Part shown: in pieces, positions 29,901 to 41,900 of the stretch | How the letters are laid out: every line of letters begins with the position of its first letter | How positions within the stretch are numbered: position 1 is the first letter of the stretch | Source: Symbiodinium natans | Taxonomy: Eukaryota; Sar; Dinophyceae; Suessiales; Symbiodiniaceae | DNA: 64,000 nucleotides | Reading direction: 5' to 3' | Assembly: GCA_905221605.1 (NCBI GenBank) | Contig: CAJNDS010002369.1 | Span: 355,655-419,654, forward strand | Translations under genes and position numbers: made by a program | The notes under the pieces: generated by a model | Database searches by the model: none | What the model saw: the letters and a program-made list of their open reading frames with translations, nothing else | What the model was told of the DNA's origin: nothing

Positions 29901-32900
29901 CACGGGAAGATTTCAATGCGTGAGCCTTGTGCCTGGAGCAGATCGAGTTCCAGAATACCCTAAACTCTGAATCCTAAACCTCCACAATTCTAAGAGCCTC
30001 AAGCCCAAAACCCCATGAAAGCTGGTAGTTGTATAGCAGCCAGGGGTCCCTAGACCGGTATACATGGTAGGCTCCCTAAATGAGAGCTCCTTGTCAGGGT
30101 AACTTCATGATATCTGCGCCGAAATGAGGAGCCCCACATGATCCCTATACCCTATGAAGCCAAAACTCTAAACCCTGAACCCCAAACCCTATACCCTAAA
30201 CCCTAGACCCTAAACCCTAAACCCTAAACCCTAAACCCTAAACCCTAAACCCTAAACCCTAAACCCTAAACCCTAAACCCTAGCCCTAAACCCTAAACCC
30301 CAAACCCTCACACGCCGCCAGGCTGCACCATGGCCGCGATGCGGCGCTCCTCTTGGAATCGGAGGAGCTCCTCTTGCGGAAGAACCCGCAGGCCCTGAAC
30401 CCTAGACCCTAGCCCTAAACCCTAAACCCTTAACACTTGAAACTTGAGGGCTTTTAGGTATCACCCCCCCCCCCCCCCCCACAACCAAGGGAGATCCCGA
30501 CATCTGGCTCCTGCCCGCGACCCAGTGACCCTAGAAAAGCTACACAGGCCACACCCCCAAATGGCGCACAAAACAGACATGCAACAACGCGGGGCCCCAC
30601 AGCGTACCTTTCCCTAAGGGTCCACGTACCTCATTATTATATACTTGGGCCCCAAAGTCCCTAAATAGGAAGTACTTTAAGGCCCAAGTATTCCCTAGTT
30701 AGGTGCACGGACCCTGAGGGCCCTAAACCCTAAACCCTAAACCCTAAACCCTAAACCCTAAACCCTAAACCCTAAGCTTCTGAAAACAAAAAACGGAATG
30801 TGCCTTCGAGAGCTGATCCAAAGTCTCGGAGATGACGCCACCTTGGACGGACCTCACAACCGTGCCGGAGGGGTTTAGGGTTTAGCGTTCACTCGCGCTT
30901 CGGACTCTACCTTTTCTGCCACAGCTCAAGGGCCCTTCGAGAGGTAACAGCAACAGCAAACAAAATGTACAACATGCAAACTGCTGCTCTCAGAACTACA
31001 CATGAAAAGGCACGCACTCAAGCTATACATGCAAGAATCGAGGTGATATTCACACCCGTCTTACTTATTGATGCGTGCCTGGGGCTCATTCGAGGTTTTG
31101 GTTGAATTCTGAGTGTGACTATACAGTGTCTATACAGATAGGCCTCTACCAGACTGCGATTCCTTGGCAACTACTAGCTCACTATTCCTGACGGTGATGT
31201 CTGTACATCTTTGTTCCCGTCACTCATTTGTAGTCATCTTCTGGATTTCACTCTTGGTGAGCTTGCGATCGGGATCTGATAGCTGCACACTCGCTTCTTC
31301 CATCAAGCGAAATAGCTGATGCGGTTTCATCGACTTGGTGAGGGCATCGGCGATCTGGGTTGCAGTATCCGTCCAGCGAAGCCTGTCTCCATGTGGACTG
31401 TACAACTGCCATGTCGCTGTCTCGCCATCCCAAAGTTGTTGCCTCATTGCAGTAAGTTCGATCATGAGTCGCTTGTCCGACACCTTGTTCACTTGCTGGC
31501 TGTTGAGGTGGTCGCTCAAACTTCGACAATCCGTGACCCATAAGTGCTTCATCTGCCTCTGAGTCTCTTCTAGCCATCCCTTCAGGCTTGGCAACTGTCC
31601 GCGTAACTCACAGATGATTGCTCTCAAACGGTCACCGTTCTCCACTGCCGTCTGCATGGCAAAAGTCTCCGATGCCAAAGTACTGCGACACACCCGCTTG
31701 ATCGTTGTCGATCCGAAACTCAAGACATGAGCGACGTGGTCATTGCCGTCGGACGCACTCTCTGCCGTCAAGTAGTGCAGCCTGCCCTGTTGACTTCGGA
31801 AACCTGGTTCCTGTGCGAATGAAGCGTCTGAGAACGTTACAATGCAGAGATCACTCCAATTCAACGCTCCGGCTGGGTAGTACAACGATCTTCCTTGATC
31901 TGCTTGCGCCAATTCCACAACGCGGTTGGCCTCTTTGAGATCAGCCACTGTCGCGGTTGAGCAGGCCCGTTGCAAACAGTTCACCTTGTAGCAAAGGTCT
32001 GGTCTGGCAAAACGCGCTACCCAAGCTAAGGATCCTACCACGCTCCTGAGGCTTGTCACTTCTGCCTCGGTCGCGTGATCACTTGCCTTGCGCCCTGCCG
32101 GGATCACAATCTTCCTGATCTGTCTCGTGTTGTCCTCTGCATCTATACGCACACTGTAGTCTTCACCTTGCCGGAATCTTCGACCGCAAAACCTGAAATC
32201 TGAGTGCTCTATCTTTCCTACGTCAAACTTCGCCAGGATTCGTTCCATGGTGTCGCTTCCTTCGGGCGTTGCGCACCATAGTAGATCGTCCACGTGCGTT
32301 GCGAGGATGATGGCCGGCAAGTTATCAGTGCCCAACAGGTAGTAGAGACCCGGAGCGATCTTGCTCACTGTCAATCCTTCCGTCTTCGCTTCCGAGCTCA
32401 ATCTGTTGTAGAACCCGCGCCCCGCGTCAATGGTCCCGTAGATCGGGAGCCTGCATAGAAGCATGGCATCCTCGGGCACATCGGGTAGTCCACCTGTTGG
32501 CTGCCTCATCAACAGCACGCGCTCCAAAGGCGAGGATTGAAAGTATGCACTCGAAATGTCGCCACAATACAACTTGAGGCACCGCGATGCTGCATAGCTC
32601 GCGATGAGACAGTGCACTTCGGAATCTGCTGTCGGGCTGTCGCACCGCAGCTCGTCCCTTCCTACTGCCTCAAGATGACCGCATGCCACTAGGCGACTGC
32701 GATATTTCGGGGAATAATCTGCACTCCCCTTTTGATGTTCGTGTTTGTCAACATCAATCCATTGTGACGGTATGGGTTTGTGACCCTCATCGAGGAGTTG
32801 TCGCAACATCTCTCCTCGGATGGGTATCGCGGCGTTATACTTTTGATATTTGTTCCACTCATCTCGGCGCGAACCTTTGATCCCCTCCTTGACGCGGTCT

Positions 32901-35900
32901 TCACACTTGAACACGTTTATCTTCCGGGGTTTCTTGCCCGCTTGAGCTTCCACCTCCATACCAAACCTTTCCGCCATGAAGGCTCGGAACTCCGGATCAT
33001 CCATCTTCACCTCGGGCAAACTCGATAGATCAACCGGGCTTTCGCTCCGGACACGAAACAAGCTGAAACCGGTCCACGCCAAGTTCGTTGCTCCATTTGC
33101 TTCTTGGATCATTCCCCACTCGTCATGCACGACATCGTTCGTGCCGTCCTCGAAGTACCTATGGGTTTCCCTAGAGTAGCCAATCTTGCCGAGGTCACCT
33201 GGGAAATCATTTTCCTTGGGGTCAAACATCAAGCGACGGGGCTTCACATGTACTCTGAAGCACACATTCCGACCAACCTTCCAGTGGTCCTCGTCTCCGC
33301 ATACACCCATCAGATCTGCCATACGTTCAGGCGATTCTCTCGAGGTCTCTTCCTTTTTCACGTCATTGGGTGGTTCCTCAACACTTCCTAGACACGACAC
33401 GGGAACGCAGTCATTTTCGATGCCGAAACCCAACTCTCTCAGCATGTCCCGCTCCCGATCCCCAAGATTCATGATTCCCCTACTTGTGAATGCGCTGATT
33501 GACCATCGTTCTCCATCGAAAGGCAAGGTAGCGTGGACTTCATTGGGATCGAAAGACGCTATCCTGTTATGGCACTCCAAGACACGGCCTGGAACTCCAT
33601 TCATCATCACATCTCCGTCCTGATTTTGCAGCCACAATTGGCCACCTGCGTGATTTCCCAATGTCGTGATCTGGTTCACGCTGCCTTTCAGGTTGTTTGA
33701 GTCCTTGTGGGGCAAAGCCTTTAGGTCCCTACCAATCTGGAGCGATGACCACATGCCTGATGCACCCTTCGCCTTCATGTAGCCATTCAGGTAACTGACC
33801 AAGTTCGGGTGTCGTTTCGTCGACTCGGTGACCCCCGCGAACCCGCCATGTGCATACACTCCGAAGCTGTAGGCGCGTCCATCTCTCACAGCTCCACGTT
33901 TTCCTTTTCTCACTAAGGGTGCCTCATTTAGGAGCCTTAAACACGTTGCTGGGCGAAAATCACCTGCCTCCAATGCGTCCATGGCGTCCTGCTCCGAGTC
34001 GATGATGTTCATCGTGCCTTGCACGACGTCCGCCTCATTTTCCTGGAGCACATCCACGACCACCTGACTGGCCTGTACATCTCTGCTCGGGCGCTGGTCC
34101 TCCTCATCAGATGAGCTGCTTGAACTTGAGCTCGAGCTTGGGGCTTCAGGAGGTTCGATTTCTTCCTGCTTTCTCTTCCTAGCTGATGCGCTCGGCTTGC
34201 TCGATTTCCTTTCCGGCTTTTCTTCTTCTTCTCTCGCATCTACGTATCCCTTCTTTCTCTTCTTAGGACCCTCTGTAAGCGTCTCAGGTAGAACAGGTAT
34301 CCCGTTAAGAAGGCAATGCGCCAGCACTTCCTCCTCAGATGCCGGCCTCAGCGAGTGAGTCGAGCAAAGGACTGGGACCCCTCCGTTCACCACCCATATC
34401 GCTTCTGCGCTTTCTCTACCGATTACCCTGGATGTCGTGCTCCATTTCGTGCCGCCCGCTTGGGCGTCTCTCCGATACACGACATAGTCACCGGTGTTGT
34501 ACTCTTCCTTGATCGGTACCGCATTCTTTGTTAGCGCTTTCTGGATCCTACGGCTGGTGTCCAGTTTCACCATTGCTTTCTTTGCTTCGATGCGGCTTTT
34601 CTGTCTTAGAGCAAAGGCCTCGGCACCGCTGAACTTGCCCTCCATGGCGCCGATGTCGTTCCAGGTGTCCTCGTCGGTGAGCGTGCCAGGTTCCCTCGGG
34701 TTGCGACCTAACACCCACTGACTAGGCGAAAAACCCGACACGTTCATGGACATGTTCTTGACGGCGACGACTTCCTGGATCACACTCCTCATCGCCTCAG
34801 GCCCAACGGTGCTCACGCCTGCCACGGTCTTTCGGATGACCGCCTTCGCGAGCCCTCCGTGCCTCTCGGTTTTACCGAGCATGTGGGGCGACTCGGTTGC
34901 GGCGAACCTGATGTCCACCCCCTTCTCCGTGAGATAGCTCACAAAGGCTCCTCTGTTATGAGTACCTCTGTCCAGCATCACGGTCCGCGGGAGGCCCGCC
35001 CAAGTAATCCACCTCTGGAACGCTTCAAGACACATCTCTGACGGAGGAGGTCCTTGACTGTCCTTGGTGACTTCCCTCAGCAACTCGATCTGTTGGAAGC
35101 CCGTTGCTAGGTCTACCACGTTGAAACACTGATATCGGCGACGGTTTGAGTCTGTCGTCTCTAGGACATCCACTCCTACCGTGTCCCCGAACACGTAGTT
35201 CCCGTGGCCAACCCCCACAGGGTGTGACCTGGGCTTGGGGCTCGTGCGCTCACAGCTTTCGCACTTGATGAGCTTGGCCGCTTCGATGAACTCCTTGGCT
35301 GCTCCTCCTGCTCTCAGGATGGCCTGCAACGTCCTAGGAGTGGGGTGGTTGAAGGACCTATGCAAGCGACGAAGTGCCACGCGAACGCGCTGGGGCAAAC
35401 GCCTCCAGGCCTCCCTTCGCTTGGCCTCTGTTTGCGGAGTGCCTGGGAGTGGCAAGGATTCCAACCACACTCGTTCGCGATCTGCAGGGCTTAGCTCTGG
35501 CTCCTGGTTTTCAGGATCTGGGTGCTGCTGTTCGGGATCGTGGGGCGCTACATCGCCATCTCCTCCTAGCTCTTCATCCGAAGCTCCCAAACCCTCAGCA
35601 TCCGTATCTACCCCTGCCCCTGCTACATAAGCTGTGCTCATCGCATCAAGGTAAGCCTCCTCACCGATGGACATTATCGCGTTGAAGAAGCTGCTTCCAT
35701 TCATGTCACAGAAGGCCTTCGGGGTGTATCCTGTTCCTTCACACCATGAGCTCAAGCTCTCAACAATGCGGCTGGCCAACGGTCCAACACAAGCAATGCA
35801 TGCATCACCGGCCGTTTCAACCACCTCAGCCCCAATGTCATCTGCACTCAGCTTGCCCAACGGTGCAAGCACACACACATTGATGTCGGAAGCATCGGCT

Positions 35901-38900
35901 TCACAAAACAGGTTGATGCACAGATTCGAGTTGGGATCCCCTGATTTGTACAAAACCAGGCCCGGCCTGAACTCGTTCACCTCGTGGGTGAACCGATTCC
36001 ACTTGAAGTCCTTCGCTGAGTGTTCAGATATGCCGGGGAGATCTACTGGGGCATTGTCATGGATCAAGAAGGTGCACTTCGGGGCTTTGATCAACGAGGT
36101 TGAGTCTTCCCGCTGGGTTTGCACTCCAGCTACCATTGCAGTGAATGTATCCATCTCTTCCAATGTCCTCAACTCCCTATTGAACACACCCATCTGCTCC
36201 CTTGTCATGATCCTTGTCGTCACATACGCTCTCTTTTCAGCCTCATATGGGAACTGTGCGACGAGAACAAACTCTGCATCTCCAGCAATGCCAGTTGTCA
36301 AACGAGTAGATCCAGCGTGCGCATAGCCGATCCATCGCCATCCCGTCCGAGGAAGATAGGCCCAGCCGGCCTCCCACCATCCAGCGGGAAACCTTGGATC
36401 CAGCGCAGACTTGCTTGGCCGCTGCCCCACCTCGTCATATGCAATCAGTTTAAAGCCGACACGAGCGTTCTCCCTAAAGTCGTTGCCAACTCCTGGTCCT
36501 ATCCAGGTTGCAGCTTTGGCTCTCTTCAAGTGCCTGCCCCCGCAAGGTTGCATATTCTCAGTGGCCAAACGACGCAGCTGATCCAACATGCCCGGAGGCC
36601 AACAGTCGTACGGCGTAATAGCGCGCCAATCACAGCCTGGTTCGGGGCGCTTATCCAAAAGAAGGTCCTCATACGGGATCTCGTGCCAGGAATCGGTGTC
36701 AAGAACTCGGCCCCCTGTAGCAATCGCAGCAGTGCCCGACGCGCCGCGCGTTGGCATCGTCCTAATCGCAAAAGTATGCCTAGAGGGCGCCCGCTCCTCT
36801 GCCCGTGCAATCGGGGATCTCGATCTGGTCCGCCTGTCCCGGCCTCTGGACCTAGAGCGTCTCCTGCTCCGCGATCGCCTCCTCGACCTCGAGCGACGGC
36901 GCAGCTCGTTCCTCAGAGTGCCAACCTCGCGACCCAGAGACTCGACTCGTTGCATCAGCGCCTTATTCTGGGCCTCCAAAACAGATACGCCGCGCTCATC
37001 ACGGGTCTCCAAAGAAAATCTGCGCGCTGGCCTGCGGCTGGAACTGGGCTCCTCCTCGGCCTCGGTCAAATCGACCGTCCCAGCGGCAGAACTCGCAGAT
37101 GGCCTAGGGCGTCCCGCTCCTGGCCTAGGCATCGGCTTGCTCTTCGGGCCGGCTCCAAGCGACGGTCGCGCGGCGATCTCAAAATGGCGGATGCAAGACG
37201 GAGCGTCGATGCGACCCTTCCAGGAGAGGTACTCCTCTACTCTCTCCATGTGCTCAACTACCGCCAGCTGAGCTTCGTGCGCGCTGTGGTCGCATGTCCC
37301 GCAGGATCCGCGGCATCTGCCCGCCATACTGTCCCAAGAGCCGTTGCACATTCCGTCGTGGCTGATCGTTGTGCGGAACTTTCCAGAGAGCGCCTGTGCC
37401 AAAGTTACGCTGCTCGCCACAGACCTGTGTCGGCCCTGGGTGCAAATGCAAATGCAGATAATCTGCTCCAAAGACGCGGGTGCCTCGCGAACAGCCTGGT
37501 GCACGTAGAAGATCATGTCTCTGAACTCAGGATTCTCCCATTGATTGGTCAGGTTTCCAGGGTGCGAGCCAATATGCCCCTTCAGCCAGGACAACGAACC
37601 CGACTGAATCTCGGGGTTAGAAAAATCCAGACAATTGCAGATCAAGATCGCAGTGCTCCCAGTCAAGGGCCCGTGCAGGGCCTCGGCCAATGCCTTCGCA
37701 GACTCCTGCCCAGGGCTGTAGATGTAAGATGAGGCCTCGCGGCGCCATCGAGTCCCCGTAGAGACAATGTGGACACTCGGCATCTGCTTGCTAGACCGAG
37801 GATCACTGCTTGCCACGTTGGCCTGAATGTTACCCTGGTGGTTTCCACCCGAATCTGTGACTGAGGTGTGTGCGCCTTTGTCCTTAATCCTTTGAGGATG
37901 CTGCTTACGCTCATCGGGATGCTTCTGGGGATCTGTGTCCTGCTTCTGGGAATCTGTGTCCTGCTTCTGGGAATCTGTGTCCTGCTTCTGGGAATCTGTG
38001 TCCTGCTTCTGGGAATCTGTGTTCTGCTTCTGGGAATCTGTGTTCTGCTTCTGGGGATCTAAGTCCTTGGATGTCAAACCTTCGTGCCCTTCACCCTTAC
38101 GAATCTTCCTCTCCAACGGCGCTCTGTAAGGTCGAAGCGGACGAGGTATTCGATCCAGAAGGCGGATACCGGAGGAGAGGTTCACTGCAAGCAAATTGCT
38201 CCCTTTAACCCTGAACAGGGGCAACCTCCACAGTTCTCCATTGTTCCTCTGTATCAAGCAGGTGAACGACTTCATGTCCTTCAACAAACCCAGGGTGCTC
38301 TGCGCGAATAAGGATAGAAGTAGGGGCGTTTCGCTCCCAGAGGTCACGTGGCAATCAAGGATACCGGGGACTAGCGGGTCCTTACCATCCTCCTTCTCAC
38401 CCTGATACTCGCATTGAATGCAGAAGCACAGACGTCGATCGCCCAAGGTCTTAGTCATCCCACCAAGTCCTCTGAACTGAATGCCTTCTTGGCTCAACCA
38501 GGGGAATTCGAAACCCAGTTTGGCCAGTTTCATCTGGGCGTTGTCACACCATCTCTCCCCGCAAACTGAGCTATTCGCACCATCATCCAAGACACCCCAA
38601 ATATCCTCATGATCGTAAATATCCACTTCCGCAAGGGTCAACGGAACCACCGAGGATAGGGAGTTGGTCTTCATGGACATGTACGCTGCGCTTTCCCCAT
38701 CTGTCCTTCTCCGGTCTTGCGATCCGGAGCCAGCTGCCCGTTGCGGTGCAGCTCTCGACATCTCGCCAGGCGACGCTCTGACGGATGACGGAGATTCCTG
38801 AGATACCACTGCTGCTTCCACGACATCATTGAGGATCTCATGTAAGTCCTTCGGGGAAATCCTTGGGTCGTCAATACCCTCGACATTCTGGGCCACTAGA

Positions 38901-41900
38901 CAATCTTCAACTTGGGACCTGAACTCATCCAACAATGTCATGGTCTGCGTTGCATCCAGGCTTGCCTCATCGAGCACATTCCTAGAGATGTTCGAGATGA
39001 GATCAAACGAAGCCGAAGTCGCAGTCTCAAGTTCCTGCGCAGCCTGACGCCTGATTCGGGCTTCTGCTTGGGGCATTTCATCTATCACATGACCACAATC
39101 CTTACAGAAAGTCTTCATGATGGCCTTGTTCGAGCCCAGTCTACTGGTGTTTGCATGCCTGCACAATGTGGGGTCCTTCTTCTCGAAGGTCTTCTTCTCC
39201 TTAAACACCTTTCCACACACCCTGCAGGTCTTCACTGTCACGTAGGCATTTGTCCCCACGTACGAAAAGTTGGTGCATGTCTGACAACTCACAGGCAAAG
39301 GGGGATTTGGGGGCTTGCTTTTGGCTGTCACATGGGAGGATGCTGCTGGCACCGCAACACTCTGCTGGGCTTGCGCTCCAGGCATTTGCGGCACCTCATC
39401 TAGAGGGATGTCTCGCCTCATTACCTCCATGCTTTCCTCATTCACGATGTAGTAATTCTGAACCCAATTCAGAAATGCCGCCAAATCCCGAGATCCCGCC
39501 GATTTCAAGGAACGTCCCCAGATGACATATGCAGTGTAGCGATGAAGAACCTCCTCGAAACTAAGCCCACGATGCTGGCCAACAGTGAAGACACGGTCCC
39601 CACCGGGAGGCATCGTGTCTCGAGCGGCATTCCTGGCTGTCCTTGAAGCTCGAGCGCCTTCCCTGCGATAGGCCATGTACGCTTTAGGGCTACCTTCTGA
39701 GGGGCCACTGTCAATGTACACACACTCCATGTCATCCTCGCTCTCACTAGTCACTGGAACTGCCATGAAAGCTTGCTTTGTTCCCGACTTCGATCCCTTG
39801 GAATCTCCCTTGGACTTGCCCTTGCCATCCGAACCGGACTGTGAAGATCGACCTTTGGGGCATTGAGGATCCCCGCTCCAATGTCCTGTTTGCCCACATC
39901 GCAGGCAACGGCTCTTAGCCTTGAGTTCCCTGAGCTTCTCTTTCCTCTCTTCAACTGACAATTGCAAGCGACTGCGCACTACCGGAAATCCTTTTCCCTT
40001 GCCACCGGATGATCCTTTACCCTTACCTGCCTTGCCCAATGCAACATGAGCCGCACACTGCAACTGAATCGCTTCGCCCGTGGCCTCGGGAAAGCTCTCG
40101 TAGTCGCAGTCCTCCATCGCATTCAAGGCGACGGCAACCTCGCTGTCGGAAACGATCACGTCCTCCTCGGAAGGAGCATATCCTGGTGAACCACCCGGCT
40201 GATCAGTCCAAGCGTTCCACCCCACATCTTCGGCATCTTCCTGTACCTCATCTTGGTACCACTCATCAGCATAATGATCATCTGCCCTATGTTCTTGCGA
40301 TACATAGGCTGAATCAATGACATCACTCACATAAGCGGTTGTCACTGACCCTGGTGAACGGCTCCCAAACTTGCCTGATCCCTTCGACTGCCATCTGCGG
40401 GTATCTCTATCGAAACCAGGGCTTCGAAGGGGTGTTGAATCAAGTAGTTTGTTCCCCCGCAAGTGAATCAACCCATGATGCTCGGTCATGATCTTTGCGT
40501 ATGTCTCAAAATCATGGGCACCGCCTGAACAAGCCTTCACCATCAACTGCTGATCACGTGACAACCCGCTCAACTCGAGCAACAATTCTGCTCTCAAACT
40601 ATCCGACAGAGATATCCTCGGATCGAGCTGCGTCATCAAGGTCCACCATCTGCGTCTCCTTCCTATATAGGAAACAACTGATTCCCCGTCCTGACGACTC
40701 AAAGGACCTCGAATGGCTTGCCCACTGCGAAACAAGGCCTGGGCCTCCAAAGTTCCTAGCGGGAAGACCATTGCCTTGATCTCGGAGATCAGGGTCCTTA
40801 GCCCTCCGGGTCCTGACAGGGTCGCGATTCCAATGTCCTTAGCCTTTTGGAAGGCGTCTCCTCTGAGACCCTCCATGACGCGAAGAACAGTGTCCACAGC
40901 CCCATCATCCCCGTCTGAGCTGCTCTCGTGCGCAACCACACTGGCCGCTGGCGAGTCAGGGACAGGAATGGTGGGTCTCCCTGACGCAGCTGCCGGTCTC
41001 CCGGCTACACCACCTTCGGCTGGAGCACTCGCTTCCGCCTGAGGTGTTCTCTCCTCTCTTCCTTGCTCAGGACCGCCTGACGAAAACGAAGTGTCTTTCT
41101 TCTCTCTCTTCTCCTTCTTCTTTCGGCGCTTCTCCTGCTGCTCATGCGCCGCAATGCGTAGCTCGGTTCTGAACTCCCATTCATGGTAGTCAGCAGGGTT
41201 TCCGTCGAAAATGAACACTCCGTTCTTTGTGACACTGGGCGTTGAAGAATACGCTTTGTTTCGGAATCTGAGGCCTGCAACTGTCATGCCCAAACTCCTT
41301 CGTCAGATCCAGTCACTGAACAAACCAACTGCTTTGCTGTTCTGCGGAAAAACGTTGCCCCGATCTTACGATTCGAGGACTTCTCTTCTCACACTCCTCT
41401 CAAACACAACCAGTCCAAAGGCCAGCTGGAACTACCCCCTGCACTATGAGGGGAGCAGCTCCGCTACCAGTTAGCGTTCACTCGCGCTTCGGACTCTACC
41501 TTTTCTGCCACAGCTCAAGGGCCCTTCGAGAGGTAACAGCAACAGCAAACAAAATGTACAACATGCAAACTGCTGCTCTCAGAACTACACATGAAAAGGC
41601 ACGCACTCAAGCTATACATGCAAGAATCGAGGTGATATTCACAAGGGTTTAGGGTTTAGGGTTTCGGGTTTAGGGTTTAGGGTTGCAGGGTTTAGGCTTA
41701 GGGTTTAGGGTTTAGGGTTTAGGGTTGCAGGGTTTAGGGATGCTGGATGATCCATGCGTCAGGTTTGGGGTTCAGGGAAGGGCTTGGATCCCCCCAAAAC
41801 CCCTCACTGGGCCGGTCATGTCCCTTATTCGCGCCGGCTGCGACCCTTCCGAGCTGAGTTCAGGGCTCCAGAACCCCCTCGAAGGCCTTGTCGCGCAGCT

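Follow-up and report, generated by a model that had tools for sequence, protein, structure and literature searches.

A Ty1/copia-type retrotransposon of Symbiodinium natans with a predicted TET/JBP-like dioxygenase domain in its polyprotein

The known cargo of mobile elements includes DNA methyltransferases (DNMTs), TET/JBP enzymes (in DNA transposons of fungi) and an RNA demethylase of the AlkB type (in orchid Gypsy elements). A fungal survey of 2025 reports no retrotransposon with a TET/JBP dioxygenase and suggests high copy number as one possible reason (PMC12730594), and the AlkB protein of the orchid Gypsy elements was shown to demethylate N6-methyladenosine (m6A) in vitro (PMC9289625). 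Dinoflagellate genomes are reported to be rich in 5-methylcytosine (5mC) and 5-hydroxymethyluracil (5-hmU). They combine CG hypermethylation with DNMT-bearing retrotransposons, and Copia elements there were described without any DNMT domain (PMC5890265); in Breviolum minutum 5-hmU is enriched over most repeats, most strongly at Maverick/Polinton elements, in a paper whose available text names no enzyme for the mark (PMC11071213). Here we describe a long terminal repeat (LTR) retrotransposon of the dinoflagellate Symbiodinium natans, located in a stretch of 64,000 nucleotides (contig CAJNDS010002369.1 of assembly GCA_905221605.1, positions 355,655 to 419,654; hereafter the window), whose polyprotein contains a 2-oxoglutarate (2OG)- and Fe(II)-dependent oxygenase domain. 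In our literature search, which leaves many journals uncovered, no title or abstract opening among the matches listed concerned a TET/JBP-type domain in a retrotransposon.

An earlier note on this DNA had proposed the domain from the letters alone, on account of an H-x-D...H...R pattern, and had placed it between the integrase and the reverse transcriptase of a retrotransposon polyprotein. Both proposals are borne out: the four active-site residues are present, a family profile recognizes the domain (E 9e-24), integrase motifs precede it and the reverse transcriptase follows. The motifs that had been quoted, PHKD (33701-33712), GGQLWL (33629-33646) and VHATLPFDGERW (33503-33538), all lie on the minus strand within one unbroken open reading frame (ORF). 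The residue numbers given with them are exact if numbering starts at the ATG, which is codon 3; numbered from the TTG, as is done here, the residues are His2529, Asp2531, His2587 and Arg2596. The domain is present, and only the extent of about residues 2470-2615 proved too narrow: comparison with a second copia polyprotein (P0002, described below) gives about 2432-2632, and a hidden Markov model (HMM) gives 2436-2618 (33440-33988). Conservation in the following list refers to the A6 alignment of 108 rows, i.e. the S. natans sequence and 107 relatives; the role of Asn2534 follows PMC7854593 and PMC11040006, and those of Arg2596 and Phe2602 follow the literature.

33398..34000, minus strand: 2OG-Fe(II), TET-like oxygenase domain, amino acids (aa) 2432-2632, extent by comparison with P0002
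33707..33709, minus strand: His2529, first Fe ligand (HxD); H in 106/108 rows
33701..33703, minus strand: Asp2531, second Fe ligand (HxD); D in 108/108 rows
33692..33694, minus strand: Asn2534, equivalent of TET2 Asn1387 / NgTET1 Asp234 (contact to base N4); N in 104/108 rows
33533..33535, minus strand: His2587, third Fe ligand; H in 108/108 rows
33506..33508, minus strand: Arg2596, equivalent of the 2OG-binding Arg (TET2 Arg1896 / NgTET1 Arg289); R in 105/108 rows
33488..33490, minus strand: Phe2602, equivalent of the base-stacking aromatic residue (TET2 Tyr1902 / NgTET1 Phe295); Y or F in 100/108 rows

The bare pattern (H.D, 30 to 80 residues, H, 8 to 9 residues, R) has five start sites in the polyprotein and is present in 542 of 1000 shuffled sequences. 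A stricter pattern that includes the GG strand, composed after the motif was known, occurs once in the polyprotein and in none of 1000 shuffles. Homology of the domain is decisive: an HMM built from 103 relatives, from which the S. natans sequence and its four closest rows had been left out, scored 79.8 bits (E 9e-24) against the ORF, with 2.9 bits for the top of the other 853 six-frame segments and 0.8 bits for the top of 220 shuffled or reversed polyproteins. This test is not wholly independent, because the relatives were gathered with a profile that included the S. natans sequence. The AlphaFold2 (AF2) model of the domain is a double-stranded beta-helix (predicted local distance difference test, pLDDT, 89.3; predicted template modelling score, pTM, 0.84), and the Foldseek and Z-score comparisons agree with this fold, for which the earlier note had suggested a structure prediction. 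We regard the oxygenase domain and its Fe/2OG site as almost certainly real.

With respect to the class of oxygenase, TET/JBP ranks first both by family profile and, narrowly, by fold. Foldseek returned 128 matches in the PDB at E <= 0.001, the best 50 of which are all 2OG oxygenases, and the nearest solved folds are the nucleic-acid oxygenases TET, AlkB and FTO. Among the structural alignments listed, NgTET1 and TET2 reach 16-18% identity, versus 9-13% for AlkB and FTO. A search of the PDB with the A6 profile yielded NgTET1 (E 3.6e-4), with the HxD, the H and the R correctly aligned; everything below E 0.001 was TET, no AlkB or FTO chain appeared up to E 10, and PiuC matched weakly (E 2.2). 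With the smaller A8 profile (14 rows) NgTET1 was found at E 0.034-0.044, after two Tet4 Variant chains (E 0.028) that match outside the HxD region. As single queries, the S. natans sequence gave nothing below E 0.34, P0058 gave CcTet (E 0.48, after an unrelated chain) and P0023 gave PiuC (E 0.3). Tet_JBP (PF12851) is the only Pfam family that the domain itself matched, below threshold, and reaches E 5e-8 among the remaining members; for 2OG-FeII_Oxy_3 (PF13640) no match of the domain was listed at an E limit of 10 with the HMMER filters on. The domain alone had no match in NCBIfam or PHROGs. Across all 108 rows PHROGs gave scattered matches, named e.g. DNA endonuclease (24 and 15 rows), which were not used as evidence. 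The oxygenase family appears to be undescribed and is close to the TET/JBP base oxygenases.

TET enzymes contact the base at HxD+3 (TET2 Asn1387, NgTET1 Asp234), R+6 (Tyr1902, Phe295) and R+8 (His1904, His297) (PMC7854593, PMC11040006). In the S. natans domain TET-type residues occupy two of these three positions (Asn2534 and Phe2602), with Ser2604 instead of the His at the third. The Asn at HxD+3 was considered as a pointer to a thymine substrate and dropped: it cannot separate 5mC from thymine, because human TET2 has Asn and the D350N mutant of CMD1 gained no activity on thymine. Nor does HxDxxN prove a TET enzyme, since it occurs in EGLN prolyl hydroxylases too.

The relatives were gathered with a profile of the S. 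natans sequence, P0001, P0002 and a relative from a virus contig, which found 186 proteins at E <= 1; the best 120 of the 186 were considered. Of these, thirteen that are short pieces or of the FkbM type were excluded from A6 by eye (P0020, P0023, P0030, P0033, P0044, P0053, P0060, P0061, P0069, P0076, P0082, P0085 and P0092), and P0002 also stands outside it. Used as a single query, the 207-aa domain matched only P0001, at 49% identity. P0002 was found by a region-wise search of the polyprotein and is itself a copia polyprotein of 4,193 aa with RVT_2. Its oxygenase (residues 544-761) lies, judged by eye, between protease-like and integrase motifs, whereas that of S. natans lies between integrase and reverse transcriptase (RT). 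Identity between the two polyproteins is 32.6% in the oxygenase domain (E 1.85e-37) and 26% in the stretch that follows it (E 1.5e-7); for the other segments the top matches were at E 0.43 (protease), 1.7 (integrase) and 0.088 (RT-RNase H). P0002 further has CCCH zinc fingers near its N-terminus and well over 1,500 residues of unassigned make-up beyond the RNase H region.

The earlier note had also asked whether the four residues are conserved across copies, and here the answer is divided. P0001 and P0002 retain all four, as the S. natans domain does, at 33-49% identity, and the two relatives closest to it, P0003 and P0004, have lost the first His. The gene models of the latter two measure 341 and 235 aa and hold the oxygenase and bits of the neighbouring Pol; they are probably decayed copies, because no RT accompanies these pieces, and they look like relics because of the lost metal ligand and their longer branches (0.32 and 0.26 versus 0.091). 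An unrooted tree was built from P0002 and the 107 of 108 A6 rows whose cut retains 110 aa or more; in it the S. natans sequence, P0001, P0002, P0003, P0004 and P0019 fall on one side of a branch with support 100/89. The label "element" is a guess from similarity for P0001 and P0019; in P0003 and P0004 the Pol motif that follows the oxygenase is present as well. The end branch of the S. natans sequence measures 0.091, and those of P0001, P0003 and P0004 0.26-0.56. A single origin with later shuffling among copia lineages would fit, and so would two separate captures from a common source.

Further members of the domain family (P0005-P0121, L001/L004) are short proteins of 79-380 aa. They come from metagenomes, protists and a single virus contig, match at E values as low as 1.8e-51 when the virus-contig copy is part of the profile, and were in no case seen inside a retrotransposon. 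The virus-contig copy has PHRV where PHxD is expected; its close relative P0005 has PHRD. A first scan of viral contigs found no oxygenase relative, and all later ones found it in this contig only, IMGVR_UViG_3300044246_000721. The contig encodes an HNH endonuclease and a packaging ATPase of the A32 type (PF04665, E 1.2e-10), has oxygenase-relative pieces at its start (PHRV) and about 2.5 kb before its end, and is probably polinton-like. No relative was found in the bacterial and archaeal genome contigs scanned, nor in phages with the S. natans domain as query; P0058 as query gave one weak phage match. In P0044, P0053, P0060, P0061 and P0082 the oxygenase relative is fused with an FkbM-type methyltransferase domain (PF05050).

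What the computation shows is the domain with its predicted fold and intact Fe and 2OG residues, TET-type residues at two of the three base-contact positions, the intactness of the element, and a homologue of the domain in another, very divergent copia polyprotein. The reading that we favour, and consider fairly probable, is that of a recent autonomous Ty1/copia-type element with an in-frame, predicted competent 2OG-Fe(II) dioxygenase near TET/JBP that would act on the bases of the element's DNA. That the predicted enzyme has a nucleic-acid substrate is likely; that this substrate is DNA bases has a somewhat better than even chance. All function beyond the active site is what we infer. The oxygenase would be released, or carried along with integrase or RT, and may act inside the virus-like particle or, after integration, on the new copy. 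It would use O2 and 2OG to hydroxylate the methyl group of a flipped-out pyrimidine in element DNA, either 5mC or thymine, the latter giving 5-hmU. A new copy might in this way escape methylation-based silencing, or unmodified cDNA might gain the modification pattern of the host.

Several observations weigh against this reading. The Tet_JBP score of the S. natans domain is 12.4 bits (E 0.05-0.09) versus a gathering threshold of 34.9, and the best of ten members scanned singly, with 28.0 bits, also missed it. A five-row profile including the S. natans sequence (A5) found neither TET nor any other oxygenase in the PDB, and therefore the tie to TET depends on the wider family. The precomputed labels are split (Tet_JBP for 5/120 and 2OG-FeII_Oxy_3 for 6/120 of the best 120 of 186), P0023 passes the 2OG-FeII_Oxy_3 cut-off (29.5 versus 27), and the NCBIfam Fe2+-dependent dioxygenase model PRK05467 matched 3/108 rows (best E 0.001). 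The R+8 position, in TET the His that contacts base N3, is Ser2604 and variable across the family, and the spacing from the distal His to the Arg is 9 residues versus 10 in NgTET1, as read off the alignment. Prolyl hydroxylases are also among the Foldseek matches; TET came first in both fold comparisons, with AlkB and FTO within one Z unit of it. Finally, the first His is replaced by Arg in P0003 and by Cys in P0004.

An RNA-directed, AlkB/FTO-like demethylase, which would strip the element RNA of m6A or similar methyl marks, would have folds close to TET on its side; it is improbable in view of the absence of AlkB and FTO chains from the A6 matches, the lower identity in the structural alignments and the HxD+3 residue (Asn in TET2), which is reported to block N6-methyladenine (6mA) in conventional TETs (PMC11040006). 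About equally improbable is a protein hydroxylase (P4H/EGLN- or PKHD-like) whose target would be a residue in Gag, in integrase or in a protein of the host. The His-to-Arg spacing of 9, found in 104/107 family rows, is that of EGLN/P4H, 2OG-FeII_Oxy_3 matched 29/108 relatives in addition to the above-threshold P0023, the bacterial P4H 4j25 was found by Foldseek (E 1.2e-5, 19% identity), and the PiuC and NCBIfam matches point the same way. Against these stand the higher rank of TET structures in the fold comparisons, the exclusively TET matches of A6 below E 0.001 and the domain's own Pfam match to Tet_JBP only. It is very improbable that the oxygenase is a passenger, captured once, now decaying and without function for the element: P0003 and P0004 and the replaced Asp of the virus-contig relative would be in line with decay, but the four residues are kept in the S. 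natans sequence, P0001 and P0002 despite their divergence, the S. natans end branch is short, and conservation of the domain extends across two elements with hardly similar RT. A chance resemblance in a long ORF, which the frequent hits of the bare pattern in shuffles might suggest, is ruled out for practical purposes by the profile match and the confident AF2 fold.

The element that carries the candidate dioxygenase looks complete. Assignments within Gag-Pol are mostly motifs read by eye, and that of the RT is by Pfam.

30882..41643, minus strand: complete LTR retrotransposon, 10,762 bp, Ty1/copia domain order; identical terminal repeats, flanking ACCCT
41471..41643, minus strand: 5' LTR, 173 nt, TGTGAATATC...ACGCTAA; 100% identity to the 3' LTR
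30882..31054, minus strand: 3' LTR, 173 nt; 100% identity to the 5' LTR
41458..41469, minus strand: putative primer-binding site TGGTAGCGGAGC, one base past the 5' LTR, by sequence and placement
31220..41293, minus strand: single Gag-Pol ORF, 3357 aa from TTG, by ORF reading; first ATG is codon 3, at 41287
39860..39907, minus strand: Gag CCHC zinc knuckle, aa 463-478, by eye
38558..38587, minus strand: aspartic protease motif DDGANSSVCG, aa 903-912, by eye; no Pfam match
37358..37504, minus strand: RapZ-C-like stretch, second accessory domain, aa 1264-1312; Pfam PapZ_C E 4.1e-5, 24.2 bits, under the cut-off of 27
34853..35362, minus strand: integrase, HHCC zinc motif aa 1978-2014 and D...D...E triad aa 2036-2147, by eye; no Pfam match
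33248..33289, minus strand: DHWKVGRNVCFRVH motif downstream of the oxygenase, shared by P0003 and P0004; the surrounding stretch aligns to P0002
32213..32788, minus strand: reverse transcriptase (RVT_2) with HVDD, aa 2836-3027; Pfam E 3.1e-13
31517..31834, minus strand: RNase H motifs D (FSDASFA), E (ASETFAMQ) and D (VTDCRSL), by eye

The identical LTRs indicate that the insertion is recent; their terminus is AA instead of CA. A single Pol in which integrase (by motif only) precedes an RVT_2 reverse transcriptase has the Ty1/copia order, and the RT motifs and the relatives resemble those of dinoflagellate copia elements. We take TGGTAGCGGAGC to resemble initiator-tRNA-Met binding sites. The 5-bp ACCCT flanks the element on either side (in element orientation ...AAACCCT and ACCCTAAACC...) and is a possible target-site duplication, although the match could be chance because the insertion site is a telomere-like CCCTAAA repeat. 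TTTAGGG/CCCTAAA repeats occur in both orientations across 1-30881 and 41644-64000 of the window and nearly nowhere within the element, which appears to have inserted into an array of them. The CpG observed/expected ratio is 0.83 in the element and 0.50-0.53 in the flanks; it was left unused as evidence, since telomere-like repeats devoid of CpG abound in the flanks. The window gave no match when scanned for the spliced-leader motif, Rfam families and tRNAs. The RapZ-C-like stretch, between protease and integrase, contains CTQGRHRSV and has no confident fold in a single-sequence structure model (pLDDT 35.9). In-frame 21-nt tandem repeats at 37899-38087 encode QKQ(D/N)TDS repeats of the ORF, and the stretch of about aa 2666-2748 between oxygenase and RT, conserved in P0002, has no Pfam match.

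If the favoured reading holds, the element may introduce chemical changes into its own nucleic acid or that of the host, and a testable question is whether a retroelement modifies the bases of its own new copy. Should the enzyme hydroxylate thymine, it would be a candidate source of the 5-hmU enrichment over dinoflagellate repeats. A wider proposal, that the Pol-borne TET/JBP-like oxygenases of copia elements write 5-hmU or oxidised 5mC on their own DNA, as a module moved between copia lineages and shared with polinton-like viruses, is speculative and rather unlikely; if true, mobile elements would supply part of the unusual modified-base landscape of the host.

With the TET/JBP enzymes (NgTET1, CcTet, TET2, CMD1, JBP1) the S. 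natans domain shares the double-stranded beta-helix, HxD...H...R, the Asn at HxD+3 as in TET2 and the aromatic residue at R+6. It differs in falling below the Pfam Tet_JBP cut-off, in the Ser at the R+8 His position and in sitting in a retrotransposon polyprotein. The fungal Kyakuja, Dileera, Plavaka and ESTA elements and some Helitrons are likewise described as mobile elements with a TET/JBP-type dioxygenase, but these carriers are DNA transposons or Helitrons (PMC12730594), whereas the carrier here is a copia retrotransposon. If intact and equipped with a TET-like domain in Pol, such an element would be a counterexample to that survey from outside its fungi. The dinoflagellate SymbioLINE-Dnmt and SymbioDIRS-Dnmt3 are also reported as retroelements with a captured DNA-base-modifying enzyme, in their case a methyltransferase in LINE and DIRS elements (PMC5890265) instead of an oxygenase in copia. 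The nearest precedent among LTR elements is that of the orchid Ty3/Gypsy AlkB elements, likewise LTR retrotransposons with a 2OG-Fe(II) oxygenase acting on nucleic acid; there the enzyme is of the AlkB type and is encoded in a plant by a separate ORF2 outside Gag-Pol (PMC9289625), whereas the S. natans enzyme is TET-like and lies within the copia Pol.
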